Origin: Sporocytophaga myxococcoides DSM 11118 | GTDB taxonomy: Bacteria > Bacteroidota > Bacteroidia > Cytophagales > Cytophagaceae | Reading direction: 5' to 3' | DNA: 64,000 nt | Assembly: GCF_000426725.1 (NCBI RefSeq) | Contig: NZ_AUFX01000014.1 | Location: forward strand, 1-64,000 | Shown here: positions 42,412-46,174 of the stretch, piece after piece | How the letters are laid out: each line of letters starts with the position of its first letter | Position numbering within the stretch: the first letter of the stretch is position 1 | Program-made: the position numbers and the translations under genes | The notes under the pieces: generated by a model | The model's input: only the letters and a program-made list of their open reading frames with translations | What the model was told of the DNA's origin: nothing | Database searches by the model: none

Positions 42412-43122
42412 ATGAAAAAGGTTATTGTGGTCTCTGGCGGGACCCGGGGAATAGGAAAAGCGATCGTTTTCAAATTTGCAGAAGAGGGGTTTGATGTCAT
42501 TACTTGTTCACGTAAAGCAGATCAGCTTCAAACACTTGAAGCTGAGTTTGTAAAGAAATTTCCGGGTAGCAAATTGACTGGAGTACAAGCTGATTTATCT
42601 AAAAAAGAAGATGTGACTTCTTTTGTCAAAAAGATTAACGAAGTAACTAAAAGATTTGATGTACTCGTCAATAATACCGGCGTATTTCTTCCAGGACAAA
42701 TACACAAGGAAGAAGAAGGAGCTCTTGAATTTCAGATTGAAACGAACCTTTATAGTGCCTATAACCTGACTCGAGGTCTTGTTCAGCGAATGATCAATGA
42801 AAAAAGTGGCTATATTTTTAATATTTGCTCCACTGCAAGTATCACAGCATATACAAATGGAGGTTCTTATTGCATTTCAAAATTTGCTATGTATGGAATG
42901 ACAAAAGTGCTGAGAGAGGAAATGAAACCATACGGTATTAAAGTTACTGCTGTGTTGCCTGGAGCGACATTAACTTCCAGTTGGGAAGGAGCAGGGCTAC
43001 CTGATGAACGTTTTATGAAACCAGAGGATGTTGCTGATGCGATCTTTTCAACCTACAGTTTATCGAAAAATACAGTAGTGGAAGAAATTCTTTTACGCCC
43101 TCAGGAAGGTGATATTGGATAG
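42412..43122 (+). CDS. Short-chain dehydrogenase/reductase
   Basis: The protein is 236 residues from the ATG at 42412; the TTG three codons earlier is less likely. The Rossmann motif is SGGTRGIGKAI. NNTG is the substrate-side Asn motif, and the catalytic residues are Ser in CSTAS and YCISK (YxxxK). It reduces or oxidises an unknown substrate with NAD(P). Closest in style to 3-oxoacyl-ACP reductase-like or sepiapterin-reductase-like SDRs; substrate not assignable. It diverges from mlaE. Confidence 0.9.
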   Translation: MKKVIVVSGGTRGIGKAIVFKFAEEGFDVITCSRKADQLQTLEAEFVKKFPGSKLTGVQADLSKKEDVTSFVKKINEVTKRFDVLVNNTGVFLPGQIHKEEEGALEFQIETNLYSAYNLTRGLVQRMINEKSGYIFNICSTASITAYTNGGSYCISKFAMYGMTKVLREEMKPYGIKVTAVLPGATLTSSWEGAGLPDERFMKPEDVADAIFSTYSLSKNTVVEEILLRPQEGDIG

Positions 43123-43124
43123 TA

Positions 43125-43361
43125 ATTTACGATTGTAAATCTTTCTTTAATTTTATTTAGGGGAATAGTGATCTGAAATCAGATAGTTATTCCCCTTTAC
43201 TTTTTACCTGTTTAAAATTGTAAATTCATTAAAGTAGATGAAGGATGGATTGTTTATTAATATATTGATTAACAGGTTAAATGTCAGATTTAGTTAACTT
43301 GCTCAAGAAGATAGTTTACAATTCTGAATAGGTGACATTTGTAAATCTTTACAATTGTAAA
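43125..43361. promoter_or_regulatory. Cluster of four TTTACAATTGTAAA-like palindromes
   Basis: One perfect palindrome TTTACAATTGTAAA is at 43348-43361. Close variants are ATTTACGATTGTAAAT at 43125-43140, TTTAAAATTGTAAA at 43211-43224 and the half-site TTTACAATTCTGAA at 43315-43328. A further GTAAA half-site occurs at 43341-43345. Four related dyads in 240 bp of non-coding DNA look like operator sites for a dimeric regulator. A TACTTTTG at 43391-43398 downstream fits the -7 consensus TAnnTTTG. No gene follows until ispG at 44165. Confidence 0.5.
43159..43205 (+). terminator. Terminator after the SDR gene
   Basis: AGGGGAATA (43159-43167) pairs with TATTCCCCT (43188-43196). An inner stem ATCTGA/TCAGAT closes the loop, and T-rich sequence follows. 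Confidence 0.85.
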
Positions 43362-43419
43362 TCGTGATAGTATTTAAATTATCCAATTATTACTTTTGAA
43401 CTGGGATTTATGGGATTAG

Positions 43420-43459
43420 AGGATAGACAGAATTATCTTCCATTAATCCAGTCTATCCT
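43420..43459. other. Stem-loop in the gene-free region
   Basis: AGGATAGAC (43420-43428) is perfectly complementary to GTCTATCCT (43451-43459). It lies 20 bp after the candidate -7 box and before the 21-bp repeats, so it would be near the 5' end of any transcript made there. Confidence 0.45.
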
Positions 43460-43627
43460 AAACCTCGATTCTTACTTTTTCTATGAAGGATAATTCCTAA
43501 GGTTAGGTAACTATTTTTTATATTTGTCTTAAGCCGAAAACTGAATACGAAAAGCTTAAAGAAAAAAGTTTAAAGAGTAGACTTTTTGGAGTGAAATAGG
43601 CTGCGATAATTTTCCTGAGCTTGCGAA

Positions 43628-43986
43628 GGAAAATTGGAGTTCTGAACTCGAAAATTGGAGTTCTGAACTCGAAAATTGGAGTTCTGAACTCGAAAATTGG
43701 AGTTCTGAACTCGAAAATTGGAGTTCTGAACTCGAAAATTGGAGTTCTGAACTCGAAAATTGGAGTTCTGAACTCGAAAATTGGAGTTCTGAACTCGAAA
43801 ATATAAACTCAAAGCACGGAAGCTTGAGCAAAAAGCTCGGAGGATTGAGCAAAAAGCTCGGAAGTTTAAGTTAATAGCTCGGGGATTTGAGTCAAAAGCT
43901 CGGATGGTCGAGATAAGAAGCTCGGAGGTTTGAGCAAAAAGCTCGAAGGTTTGAGCTAAAGAGCTCGGAAGTTTGAGTTGAAAGCT
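43628..43986. repeat. Array of seventeen 21-bp tandem units, eight identical and nine diverged
   Basis: Units 1-8 (43628-43795) are identical apart from one base in the first; each contains AATTGGAGTTCTGAACT. Unit 9 (43796-43816) is degenerate. Units 10-17 (43817-43986) are a diverged form of type CGGAGGTTTGAGCAAAAAGC, six of 21 bp and two of 22 bp. Both forms carry an inverted repeat spanning the unit boundary: GAGTTC-T-GAACTC in the first, GAGC-aaaaa-GCTC in the second, and GAGCT-aaag-AGCTC in one unit. A 9-bp stem (43608-43616 with 43627-43635) precedes the array. There are no unique spacers, so it is not a CRISPR. The unit length equals two DNA helical turns and seven codons. Confidence 0.9.
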
Positions 43987-44011
43987 TCAAAATTGGAGAT
44001 CCGCTCCCCGG

Positions 44012-44130
44012 CCTGTGTCTCACAGGACGGAATCTTTATAAGAGAGCGAGAAAGAAATTTTCAGAATAAAAATTAAATAAAACCACCGCCCCCAAGTCCT
44101 TCTCCTTCAGGAGAAGGATTTAGGATGAGG
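44012..44130. repeat. REP-like hairpins in the ispG leader
   Basis: A small hairpin CCTGTG-tct-CACAGG is at 44012-44026. At 44097-44118 there is a perfect 9-bp stem TCCTTCTCC/GGAGAAGGA with a TTCA loop, flanked by CCGCCCCCAAG and TTTAGGATGAGG. The latter resembles an intergenic repeat I recognise from many Bacteroidota genomes. Only one copy is in this window, so its dispersed nature is from memory, not seen here. Confidence 0.5.
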
Positions 44131-44164: not shown

Positions 44165-46174
44165 ATGGGATCAATTGCTCCTTTAATTAAAGCCGGTTCT
44201 TACAAATACAATGACAATCTGACCCAGTATTCGCGTCGAAAAACTATCGAGGTGAATATTGGCGATGTCCCGATGGGGGGAAACAACCCTATCCGAATCC
44301 AATCCATGACGACAGTCGATACAATGGATACTATGGGTTCGGTAGAACAGGCCATCCGAATGATCAACTCAGGATGTGAATACATCCGGATTACCGCTCC
44401 AAGCGTGAAGGAAGCCCAGAACCTGGAAAATATCAAAAAGGAGTTGAACCGCAGAGGATTTTTTGCGCCCATCGTTGCTGACATCCACTTTACTCCGAAT
44501 GCAGCAGAACTAGCTGCCCGCATTGTAGAAAAGGTAAGGATCAACCCGGGTAATTATGCTGATAAAAAGAAGTTTGAGACTATCGAGTACAGCGAGACTT
44601 CTTACCAGGCAGAACTGGAGAGAATCAGAGAAAAATTCATTCCCCTTGTAAATATCTGCAAAGAGTATGGAACTGCTATGAGAGTTGGTACGAATCACGG
44701 TTCTCTTTCAGACAGAATCCTAAGCCGTTACGGAGATACCCCTCTGGGAATGGTGGAATCTGCTCTTGAGTTTGTGAGAATTTGCGAAGAGTTAAACTAT
44801 TATAATATCGTCCTGTCCATGAAGGCCAGCAACACTCAGGTAATGGTGCAGGCGTATCGCCTTCTGGTGCAGAAGTTGAATGAAGAAGGTCTGAAACCTT
44901 ACCCGCTTCATCTTGGAGTAACGGAAGCAGGTGAAGGAGAAGATGGAAGAATAAAATCTGCTGTTGGAATCGGTACATTGTTGGAAGATGGACTAGGAGA
45001 CACTGTCAGAGTTTCTCTTACTGAAGATCCTGAATTTGAGGCACCAGTTGCCAAAATGCTTGTTGACCGATACAATATCAGAGCAGGACACAATTCGATT
45101 AAGCCGATTGCGCATGATGAAAGTCCTGTCAATCCATACATGTATCAGAGAAGAGATACAAGGGAAGTGATGAACATCGGTGGTGGCAATGTGCCAAGAG
45201 TGATCATTGATTTCAGCAAAGTCTCTGACAAGAAAATGGATGATTTAAAATCCATCGGGCATTTTTATATGCCTTTGCTGGATAAATGGAATATGAATGA
45301 TCAGGGTGCAGATTTCATTTATACAGGAAATAACAAAGTGCCATTCATGCTGCCTAACGGTCTGAAAGAAATCCTGAACCACTCTGTATGGTTGAGAATG
45401 GACGACAGAACGAATATATTCCCGTTGATCACGTTGAAGGATTACTTCTCAGCAAAGCCAAAACATAAAACGCTGAATTTTATTCAGCTTACCATAGAAG
45501 ACCTTGACGATGAGGTGATGGATAAACTGCGAGATGACCTTACTGCTGTTCTGATCATTGATACATTTAACCTCCACGCCCTTCCTGAGCAAAGAAGAGC
45601 CATATTCGAACTGATGATCAATGAGGTACCGGTGCCTGTGATCATTATGAGAAAATATCCATCTATGGAAGATGAGCAGTTGCAGTTATATGCAGCAACA
45701 GACTGCGGCGGATTATTGATCGATGGTCTTGGTGACGGAATTTTATTGAGTACAGAACTTGTTAATGTAAAGAGCAAGGATCTGCATCTGAAGCTTCTTA
45801 AAACACTTAATACTACTTCTTTCGGAATTCTTCAGGCGGCAAGAACCAGAATGTCGAAGACGGAATACATTTCTTGTCCATCTTGCGGAAGAACGCTTTT
45901 TGACCTTCAGGAAACAACAGCAATGATCCGTAAAAGAACAGATCACCTTAAAGGAATCAAGATCGGAATCATGGGCTGTATTGTAAATGGTCCTGGTGAA
46001 ATGGCGGATGCAGATTACGGTTATGTAGGAGTAGGGAAAGGCAAGATCGCCTTGTACAGAGGACAAAATGTAATCAAGAAATCTGTGCCTTCTGAAAATG
46101 CAGTAGACGAGCTTATTGAATTGATCAGAGAAGATGGAAAATGGCTTGAGCCAAACGCAACAATATTAGAGTAG
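44165..46174 (+). CDS. ispG: 4-hydroxy-3-methylbut-2-enyl-diphosphate synthase, long form
   Basis: This 669-residue enzyme carries out the penultimate step of the MEP isoprenoid pathway with a [4Fe-4S] cluster. The TIM-barrel part begins with IEVNIGDVPMGGNNPIRIQSMTTVDT. The cluster ligands are CPSCGRTLFDLQ and GIMGCIVNGPGEMADADYG at the C-terminus. About 250 extra residues in the middle (roughly 300-540) form the insert domain known from plants, Chlamydiae and Bacteroidota. The gene has a leader of 1 kb after the SDR gene and is followed by a small membrane-protein gene 4 bp away. Confidence 0.96.
   Translation: MGSIAPLIKAGSYKYNDNLTQYSRRKTIEVNIGDVPMGGNNPIRIQSMTTVDTMDTMGSVEQAIRMINSGCEYIRITAPSVKEAQNLENIKKELNRRGFFAPIVADIHFTPNAAELAARIVEKVRINPGNYADKKKFETIEYSETSYQAELERIREKFIPLVNICKEYGTAMRVGTNHGSLSDRILSRYGDTPLGMVESALEFVRICEELNYYNIVLSMKASNTQVMVQAYRLLVQKLNEEGLKPYPLHLGVTEAGEGEDGRIKSAVGIGTLLEDGLGDTVRVSLTEDPEFEAPVAKMLVDRYNIRAGHNSIKPIAHDESPVNPYMYQRRDTREVMNIGGGNVPRVIIDFSKVSDKKMDDLKSIGHFYMPLLDKWNMNDQGADFIYTGNNKVPFMLPNGLKEILNHSVWLRMDDRTNIFPLITLKDYFSAKPKHKTLNFIQLTIEDLDDEVMDKLRDDLTAVLIIDTFNLHALPEQRRAIFELMINEVPVPVIIMRKYPSMEDEQLQLYAATDCGGLLIDGLGDGILLSTELVNVKSKDLHLKLLKTLNTTSFGILQAARTRMSKTEYISCPSCGRTLFDLQETTAMIRKRTDHLKGIKIGIMGCIVNGPGEMADADYGYVGVGKGKIALYRGQNVIKKSVPSENAVDELIELIREDGKWLEPNATILE

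Follow-up and report, generated by a model that had tools for sequence, protein, structure and literature searches.

Layers of the gap before ispG in Sporocytophaga myxococcoides: a conserved block of dyads and promoter-like boxes, dispersed repeats and a species-variable 21-bp array

Heptameric long simple sequence repeats such as GGGAATC of Xanthomonas and GGGGA(C/T)T of Nostoc are described in the available text of PMC4692102, and TAACTGA is given as a heptameric repeat of Beggiatoaceae and some Bacteroidetes in that of PMC4679880. The Xanthomonas heptamers are located mostly in the same gene gaps of two related species, with large variation in length and sequence (PMC4692102, available text), and polymerase slippage has been suggested as the origin of heptamer repeats, after an earlier study, in the accessible parts of both papers (PMC4692102, PMC4679880). 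BrickBuilt of Porphyromonas gingivalis is a minisatellite-MITE which has units of 23 nt and occupies 19 places in one genome, according to the available part of PMC4596501.

Here we analyzed the gap between an SDR-family oxidoreductase gene and ispG in a window of 64,000 nucleotides (the whole stretch of DNA under analysis) from Sporocytophaga myxococcoides DSM 11118, whose genome is called the own genome below. The gap holds an array of 21-bp units, and arrays of this kind resemble the heptameric repeats, as far as the available descriptions of these go, in being largely intergenic, in having a base period of 7 bp and in their variable length in matching gaps. They differ in that the heptads are degenerate and the faithful unit is made of three (21 bp) or six (42 bp) heptads; they have no single heptamer sequence and are not of the G-rich type. 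With BrickBuilt, as it is described in the available part of its source, they share the occurrence in Bacteroidota, the intergenic position and the dispersed tandem units of similar length, but their period is 21, and no leader, tail or terminal inverted repeat common to them was found.

Layers of the gap before ispG

Both genes are on the plus strand, and the gap was aligned among four Sporocytophaga genomes (the own genome, G001, G002 and G003). The alignment gave layers with differing histories, and the gap is a composite in which a conserved control block precedes dispersed repeats, with copies throughout the genome, and an array of 21-bp units that varies among the species. The control block contains a terminator-like hairpin of the SDR gene, four TTTACAATTGTAAA-like sites and two boxes of the form TAnnTTTG, which we take to be the Bacteroidetes -7 box. 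The ispG protein of the window has 99% identity with its counterpart in a Sporocytophaga MAG (JANQAB010000006.1). The features are listed here by position.

42412..43122, plus strand: SDR-family oxidoreductase gene upstream of the gap (adh_short, E 2.9e-46)
43126..43139, no strand given: dyad 1, TTTACGATTGTAAA, identical in four of four genomes
43159..43196, plus strand: terminator-like hairpin after the SDR gene, then an imperfect T run (-19.8 kcal/mol, z -5.0)
43211..43224, no strand given: dyad 2, TTTAAAATTGTAAA (site search and four-genome alignment)
43315..43328, no strand given: dyad 3, TTTACAATTCTGAA, two mismatches (site search and four-genome alignment)
43348..43361, no strand given: dyad 4, a perfect TTTACAATTGTAAA inside TTTGTAAATCTTTACAATTGTAAA (site search and four-genome alignment)
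43391..43398, plus strand: -7-like box P1, TACTTTTG, as TA[CA]TTTTG in three of four genomes and lost in G002
43394..43459, plus strand: dispersed repeat GGGATTTATGGGATTAGAGGATAGACAG with its second arm (arms 43420-43435 and 43444-43459)
43519..43526, plus strand: -7-like box P2, TATATTTG, conserved in four of four genomes
43608..43637, plus strand: stem AATTTTCCT/AGGAAAATT and seed CTGAGCTTGCGAAGGAAAATTG, the seed being in four of four genomes and single in G003
43629..43802, plus strand: array 1, 8.3 perfect copies of GAAAATTGGAGTTCTGAACTC (TRF, 100% matches)
43811..43977, plus strand: array 2, 7.9 diverged copies of AAAGCTCGGAGGTTTGAGCAA (TRF, 76% matches; segmentation calls units to 44000)
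44008..44030, plus strand: small hairpin CGGCCTGTGTCTCACAGGACGG (z -2.2), missing in G002
44091..44124, plus strand: dispersed inverted repeat AAGTCCTTCTCCTTCAGGAGAAGGATTTAGG (z -3.7)
44165..46174, plus strand: ispG (gcpE), 669 aa (GcpE, E 1.4e-121; ispG_gcpE above cut-off)

An earlier note made from the letters had described four palindromic dyads, a -7-like box at 43391, two stems and seventeen 21-bp units in a stretch where nothing codes. All four dyads were recovered, those at 43126, 43211 and 43348 with at most one mismatch to TTTACAATTGTAAA and that at 43315 with two, and they are conserved in four of four genomes in the alignment. The box was found at 43391-43398, and nothing recognisable codes in the stretch, as the note had it; the frames open across the array are translations of the repeat. 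The SDR hairpin and box P2 had been overlooked; P2 is likely the promoter nearest to ispG. Both arms of the SDR hairpin are altered between species (alignment by eye). This hairpin (43159-43196) is absent from the output of the consensus terminator scan, which gave two terminator-like sites against 0.6 expected, both within the array. The consensus scan for promoters, which is not designed for those of Bacteroidetes, gave four sigma-70-like sites against 2.9 expected.

The two stems are present in the letters. The stem at 43420-43459 has two 16-nt arms of 88% complementarity, and folding of 43398-43480 is weak, with a z of -1.8 and 7 of 200 shuffles equally good; for the stem at 43608-43635 the z is -1.2 with 24 of 200 shuffles equally good, and in G001 both of its sides are changed (alignment by eye). 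The GGGATTTATGGGATT element has 11 other matches in the genome at E <= 1.2e-4, which cover 43394-43449, and the inverted repeat CCTTCTCC..GGAGAAGGATTTAGG has 50 further matches at E <= 1 in about 46 distinct places.

Among the roughly 46 other genome places of the CCTTCTCCTTCAGGAGAAGGATTTAGGATGAGG repeat (44091-44124), seven are perfect across 38 or 39 bases. It was also observed that 43529-43579 of the window, AAGCCGAAAACTGAATACGAAAAGCTTAAAG, has a heptad-like look and that BLAST matches it weakly at many other points of the genome.

The dyad sites and the pst genes

The genome-wide search for the palindrome, which the earlier note had proposed as a check, was done against a reversed control. 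In the own genome TTTACAATTGTAAA with at most one mismatch was found at 24 places against 6 for the control, and the corresponding numbers in G001, G002 and G003 are 21 against 4, 23 against 3 and 19 against 5; over the four Sporocytophaga genomes the palindrome thus exceeds its control by a factor of 3.8 to 7.7, and the two are not equally frequent. The neighbourhoods of all 24 own sites were inspected, together with those of the sites in the other genomes (63 in number) for which locus sequence was available. Among the 24 own sites only two gaps hold two or more dyads within 500 bp, one being the SDR-ispG gap and the other the gap before a pstS-like gene which is followed by pstC. The best NCBIfam match of the pstS-like gene is the PstS family with 125.7 bits, below the cut-off of 206.6, and pstC has 267.6 bits, above the cut-off of 196.5. 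Both clusters recur in G001, G002 and G003, and sites before pst genes are conserved in four of four genomes. Of the lone own sites, 12 of 18 lie within called frames.

In G001 an additional pair of TTAACAATTGTAAA-type sites was seen 512 bp apart, one member of which is in a frame. The dyad cluster before the pstS-like gene and pstC, at C20:176.1-176.5 kb of the own genome (L187:2101-2502), is rich in TTTACA and was seen in the four Sporocytophaga genomes.

The suggestion of regulator sites beside a promoter-like box is supported, with the dyads kept in four of four genomes, box P1 in three of four, the palindrome above its control and a second cluster before the pst genes. This second cluster is a candidate phosphate regulon motif, and the dyads may bind one regulator common to ispG and the pst genes. 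The regulator is perhaps of the phosphate (PhoB) type, a guess made because dyad clusters occur in the own genome only before ispG and pst and both are kept in four of four genomes, with the pst gap as the single other locus behind the phosphate link. Known Pho boxes have a direct-repeat layout, whereas the site here is a 14-bp palindrome; the likeness to PhoB/PhoP boxes lies in the dyad cluster ahead of the pstS-like gene and pstC, which matches the one before ispG. Among the papers listed, the literature search showed none on a Bacteroidetes Pho box, and the available text of PMC8115612 does not contain the terms 'motif' or 'Pho box'.

The 21-bp arrays and their heptads

By segmentation the array before ispG has 17 units of 21 bp, the number given in the earlier note, and it is found in the own genome, G001 and G002 with 17, 8 and 8 units. 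It is missing in G003 (0 units), where the seed GAGCTTGGGAAGGAAAAATTG is present once without an array and the dyads and the box are retained. A coding repeat was considered and rejected: 34 of 241 units are not of 21 bp, the frames open across the array are translated repeat and none runs into a gene, and the longest stop-to-stop frame has 138 codons. A coding origin is further disfavoured because 7 bp is not a codon multiple.

A DNA search of the own genome with the array gave 17 further matches at E <= 1, several of them within the same array. The sequence-only profile R1, which was made from 35 of 68 three-unit stretches, found arrays in four of four Sporocytophaga genomes among the matches listed. 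The scan of fetched loci gave at least 12 own loci with three or more units, all of them intergenic and with 154 units in total, as a lower bound. In the 18 segmented arrays, a set which contains orthologues and whose members are not independent, 207 of 241 units are of 21 bp and the consensus is MAAAGCTCGRARWTTTGAGYT. When frames inside the arrays are disregarded, every array falls between called frames, and the gaps concerned are of tandem, divergent and convergent orientation.

The copy number at matching places in the relatives ranges from 0 to 19 units. In the order own, G001, G002 and G003, there are 19, 7, 12 and 4 units at C4_300k and 12, 0, 2 and 0 at C4_164k. C10_128k has 13 own units and no two-unit chain in the other three genomes; C20_460k has 7 own units and none in the two genomes where the flank was located, the flank being unmatched in G003. 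At C2_647k there are 16 and 12 units, and G001 and G003 give scores for a single unit that exceed those of shuffles; at C7_144k there are 19 and 11 units with the flank unmatched in G001 and G003. C11_17k has 3 own units and 10 in G002, whereas G003 has one hairpin-like unit there and G001 has none. The flank of C6_196k was unmatched in all three other Sporocytophaga genomes. An array signal is present in four of four genomes at three places (C4_227k, C4_300k and C5_257k), that of G001 at C4_227k and C5_257k coming solely from the R1 profile (best E 2e-8 and 8e-4). As in heptameric repeats, the same gaps are occupied in related species with variable length, and some places are private to one genome.

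A coordinate comparison gave no dyad (at most one mismatch) within 14 kb of the 11 other array places, and no shared sequence was found by blastn-short at E 0.01 among the 22 flanks (about 150 bases each) of 11 own arrays. The constraint on the columns is uneven over the 18 array majorities, where columns 4, 6, 11, 14 and 18 never leave the consensus and columns 10, 12 and 13 leave it in 10 to 12 of them. Among the papers listed, judged by title and start of abstract, none treats these 21-bp arrays, which is weak evidence of novelty as subscription journals are poorly covered.

At the C11_17k place of G003 (L278:1250-1560) a lone strong hairpin CCGAGCTTTT..AAAAGCTCGG was seen where two relatives carry arrays. 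Several arrays seem to stand beside terminator-like hairpins, which is an uncounted impression, and the C16 array of G002 (L117, about 1610-1848) is broken by an N run, so that its recorded length may differ from the true length.

Each 21-bp unit is made of three degenerate 7-bp repeats, a sub-period which the earlier note had overlooked. The mean self-match over the 18 arrays is 0.40 at lags 7 and 14, against 0.14-0.29 for the remaining lags between 2 and 19. In 17 of 18 arrays lag 7 scores highest among lags 2-13, the exception being C10_128k, where lag 11 is higher. On permutation of the consensus columns (20000 trials) the shift-7 value was reached in 0.05%, and at any shift from 1 to 10 in 0.12%. 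Columns 4, 11 and 18 carry A and columns 7, 14 and 21 carry T in 72-95% of 174 units. The level at lag 7 is uninformative by itself because the AT-rich non-array flank of the window, with self-matches of 0.24-0.39, reaches 0.37 at this lag, and the case for heptads therefore rests on the contrast within the arrays. A 7-bp base period is thus present, and perfect or near-perfect copies of one heptamer are not, the lag-7 match being 0.33-0.48 and the faithful period 21 or 42. Because of this lack of a single heptamer the arrays are not classed as members of the heptameric repeats, and are described as derived from them or working like them. A 10.5-bp letter periodicity within the unit was rejected, as lags 10 and 11 average 0.18, with C10_128k excepted.

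The R1 search at the level of the order gave hits at E <= 1e-3 in 19 of 291 genomes. Among the 15 hit genomes outside the genus, 21-bp arrays were found in five (G190, G076, G051, G172 and G246) and heptamer arrays in another five (G266, G251, G037, G029 and G201); the hits in G150 (L154), G143 (L159) and G071 (L163) were set aside as probably coding, by eye, and those in G042 and G122 were assessed for open frames only and are unclassified. None of the 15 genomes of the same family outside the genus is among the R1 hits. A sample of the phylum had hits at E <= 1e-4 in 5 of 395 genomes, of which three are new, with 21-bp arrays in G423 and G359 and a heptamer array in G373. Similar arrays are found, then, in other Bacteroidota families. 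In eight non-genus arrays the lag-7 match is 0.31-0.49, lag 8 being equally high in G172 and in one G076 array; these arrays were chosen by R1 similarity, so their heptads are no independent test. G359 is in an in-between state with near-equal self-match at 7, 14, 21, 28 and 35 (0.37-0.40). In a 21-bp array of Reichenbachiella, found by TRF alone, lag 7 does not stand out clearly (0.29, against 0.36-0.37 for lags 10 and 11). Of 44 TRF rows in 80 ispG loci, overlaps included, 21 have periods divisible by 7 (7, 14, 21, 28, 42 and 84).

In G150 (L154:60-190), apparently coding 21-bp repeats with ELSAQNS-like heptads were seen by eye to resemble the array unit in DNA. The likeness is likely a coincidence, and a link between coiled-coil repeats and the arrays is possible.

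Weighing the explanations

The explanation that we favour, and consider probable with a good share of doubt, is that of a conserved control block and, outside it, a member of a 21-bp minisatellite family which is derived from heptamers and has grown by slippage. The dyad-bound regulator would act on transcription towards ispG. The small hairpin may provide the seed, as the single units at ispG and C11_17k in G003 suggest, and slippage during replication, or else unequal recombination, would copy the seed 21 or 42 bp at a time, to which the lags 21 and 42 point. Lying between P2 and the start codon, the array would add about 370 nt to the ispG leader; its effect, if any, may come through spacing, bending or leader length rather than through a dedicated RNA, and its function is unproven. 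Counted against this explanation are the uneven column constraint, which plain slippage does not predict, the array signal in four of four genomes at three places, and the curvature (16 of 18 arrays, one model) and folding (12 of 18, plus strand) above permuted controls.

The curvature bears on the idea of a selected bent-DNA module, in which the 21-bp period (two helical turns) and the base order would make an intrinsically curved scaffold that serves a nucleoid protein or the ends of supercoil loops and is retained in the spacers between transcription units; we hold it to be unlikely. Curvature was predicted by Bolshoy-type wedges and De Santis-type angles, and both parameter sets are provisional, which counts against the module. 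In the first model, each of the 20 Sporocytophaga arrays that have at least five units and are long enough reaches at least the 99.96th percentile of 24562 local windows; in the second, each reaches at least the 97.2nd, although array 1 of the window alone is at the 90th. For six 21-bp arrays from other genomes the percentiles are 97.3-100 and 89.5-100 in the two models, against 15 and 29 for a pure heptamer array, that of G037. Compared with permuted columns, the real column order has the higher predicted curvature at 0.05 in 16 of 18 arrays (Bolshoy-type) and 9 of 18 (De Santis-type), C11_17k failing this control under both models, and the presence of arrays in tandem, divergent and convergent gaps also agrees with a scaffold. 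When the differences from the consensus were relocated to random columns, however, retention of the bend was backed by the first model (mean rank 0.11) and not clearly by the second (mean rank 0.39). An average letter periodicity at 10 or 11 bp was not found, and Cytophaga hutchinsonii, a relative, is listed among genomes with suppressed DNA bends in the available part of PMC4060949; both points count against the module. The predicted curvature of the arrays is high but model-dependent, and selection for bending is taken as a possibility, since the parameters are provisional and a period of 21 bp is in itself enough to add up bends in phase. The wider idea that helically phased 21-bp arrays with three ANNT heptads per two turns form a widespread class in Bacteroidota, selected as intrinsically bent docking arrays for a nucleoid protein and arising anew from heptamer seeds at the ends of genes, is in our judgement improbable.

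The folding bears on the readings that involve RNA. The window array folds better than dinucleotide shuffles, with a z of about -10 and about equally on both strands, as palindromic repeats do. Against column-permuted copies the plus-strand z lies between -4.9 and -0.3; the 0.05 level is reached by 12 of 18 arrays on this strand and by 10 on the other. The palindromic order therefore exceeds chance and the layout is taken as real, while its use as RNA is unproven. The units can form the small hairpins ascribed to them in the earlier note, but compensatory changes were not seen in their stems, none of 8 arm pairs covarying above shuffles over 174 units (distinct within each array), and RNA hairpins were rejected as the conserved feature. 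No Rfam match at gathering score was found in the 64 kb window. A cis-acting leader, in which the array would lie in the 5' leader of the ispG mRNA from P2 and tune ispG expression by its copy number or structure, agrees with the conserved P2 upstream of the array and with the folding (plus-strand z -2.4 in the own genome and -4.9 in G002 for the array at ispG); it seems quite doubtful in view of the missing array of G003, the z of only -0.5 in G001, the equal folding of the strands, the arms without covariation and the other own arrays, which adjoin other genes. The reading of the earlier note was that dyads, promoter and hairpin array form one unit, a regulated non-coding RNA or a protein-binding decoy. 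The parts are in the order described, and the dyads and P1 are conserved, but G003 keeps the dyads and box without the array, the other array places are free of dyads inside 14 kb, the unit number varies from 0 to 19 in gaps of mixed orientation, and the Rfam and covariation results are negative; such a unit is very unlikely. Equally slight is the chance that the arrays are the bodies of a BrickBuilt-like miniature transposable element. Dispersed intergenic arrays sharing one skeleton would fit it, but no carrier element is seen because the 22 flanks of 11 own arrays share no homology, and at some places one or two units stand with a seed that matches locally. A MITE as such was rejected, a shared leader and tail with inverted-repeat ends not being found among the 11 arrays.

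The gap before ispG shows that what looks like one designed unit can consist of layers that differ in age. Two leads come from it, namely the conserved cluster of dyads, by which ispG, and with it isoprenoid synthesis, is linked to pst genes, and a class of heptamer-built 21-bp arrays which recurs in several Bacteroidota families. If selection does bend these arrays, they would offer a handle on nucleoid organisation in Bacteroidota; if it does not, they would be a clear case of stepwise growth from a heptamer to a 21-mer.
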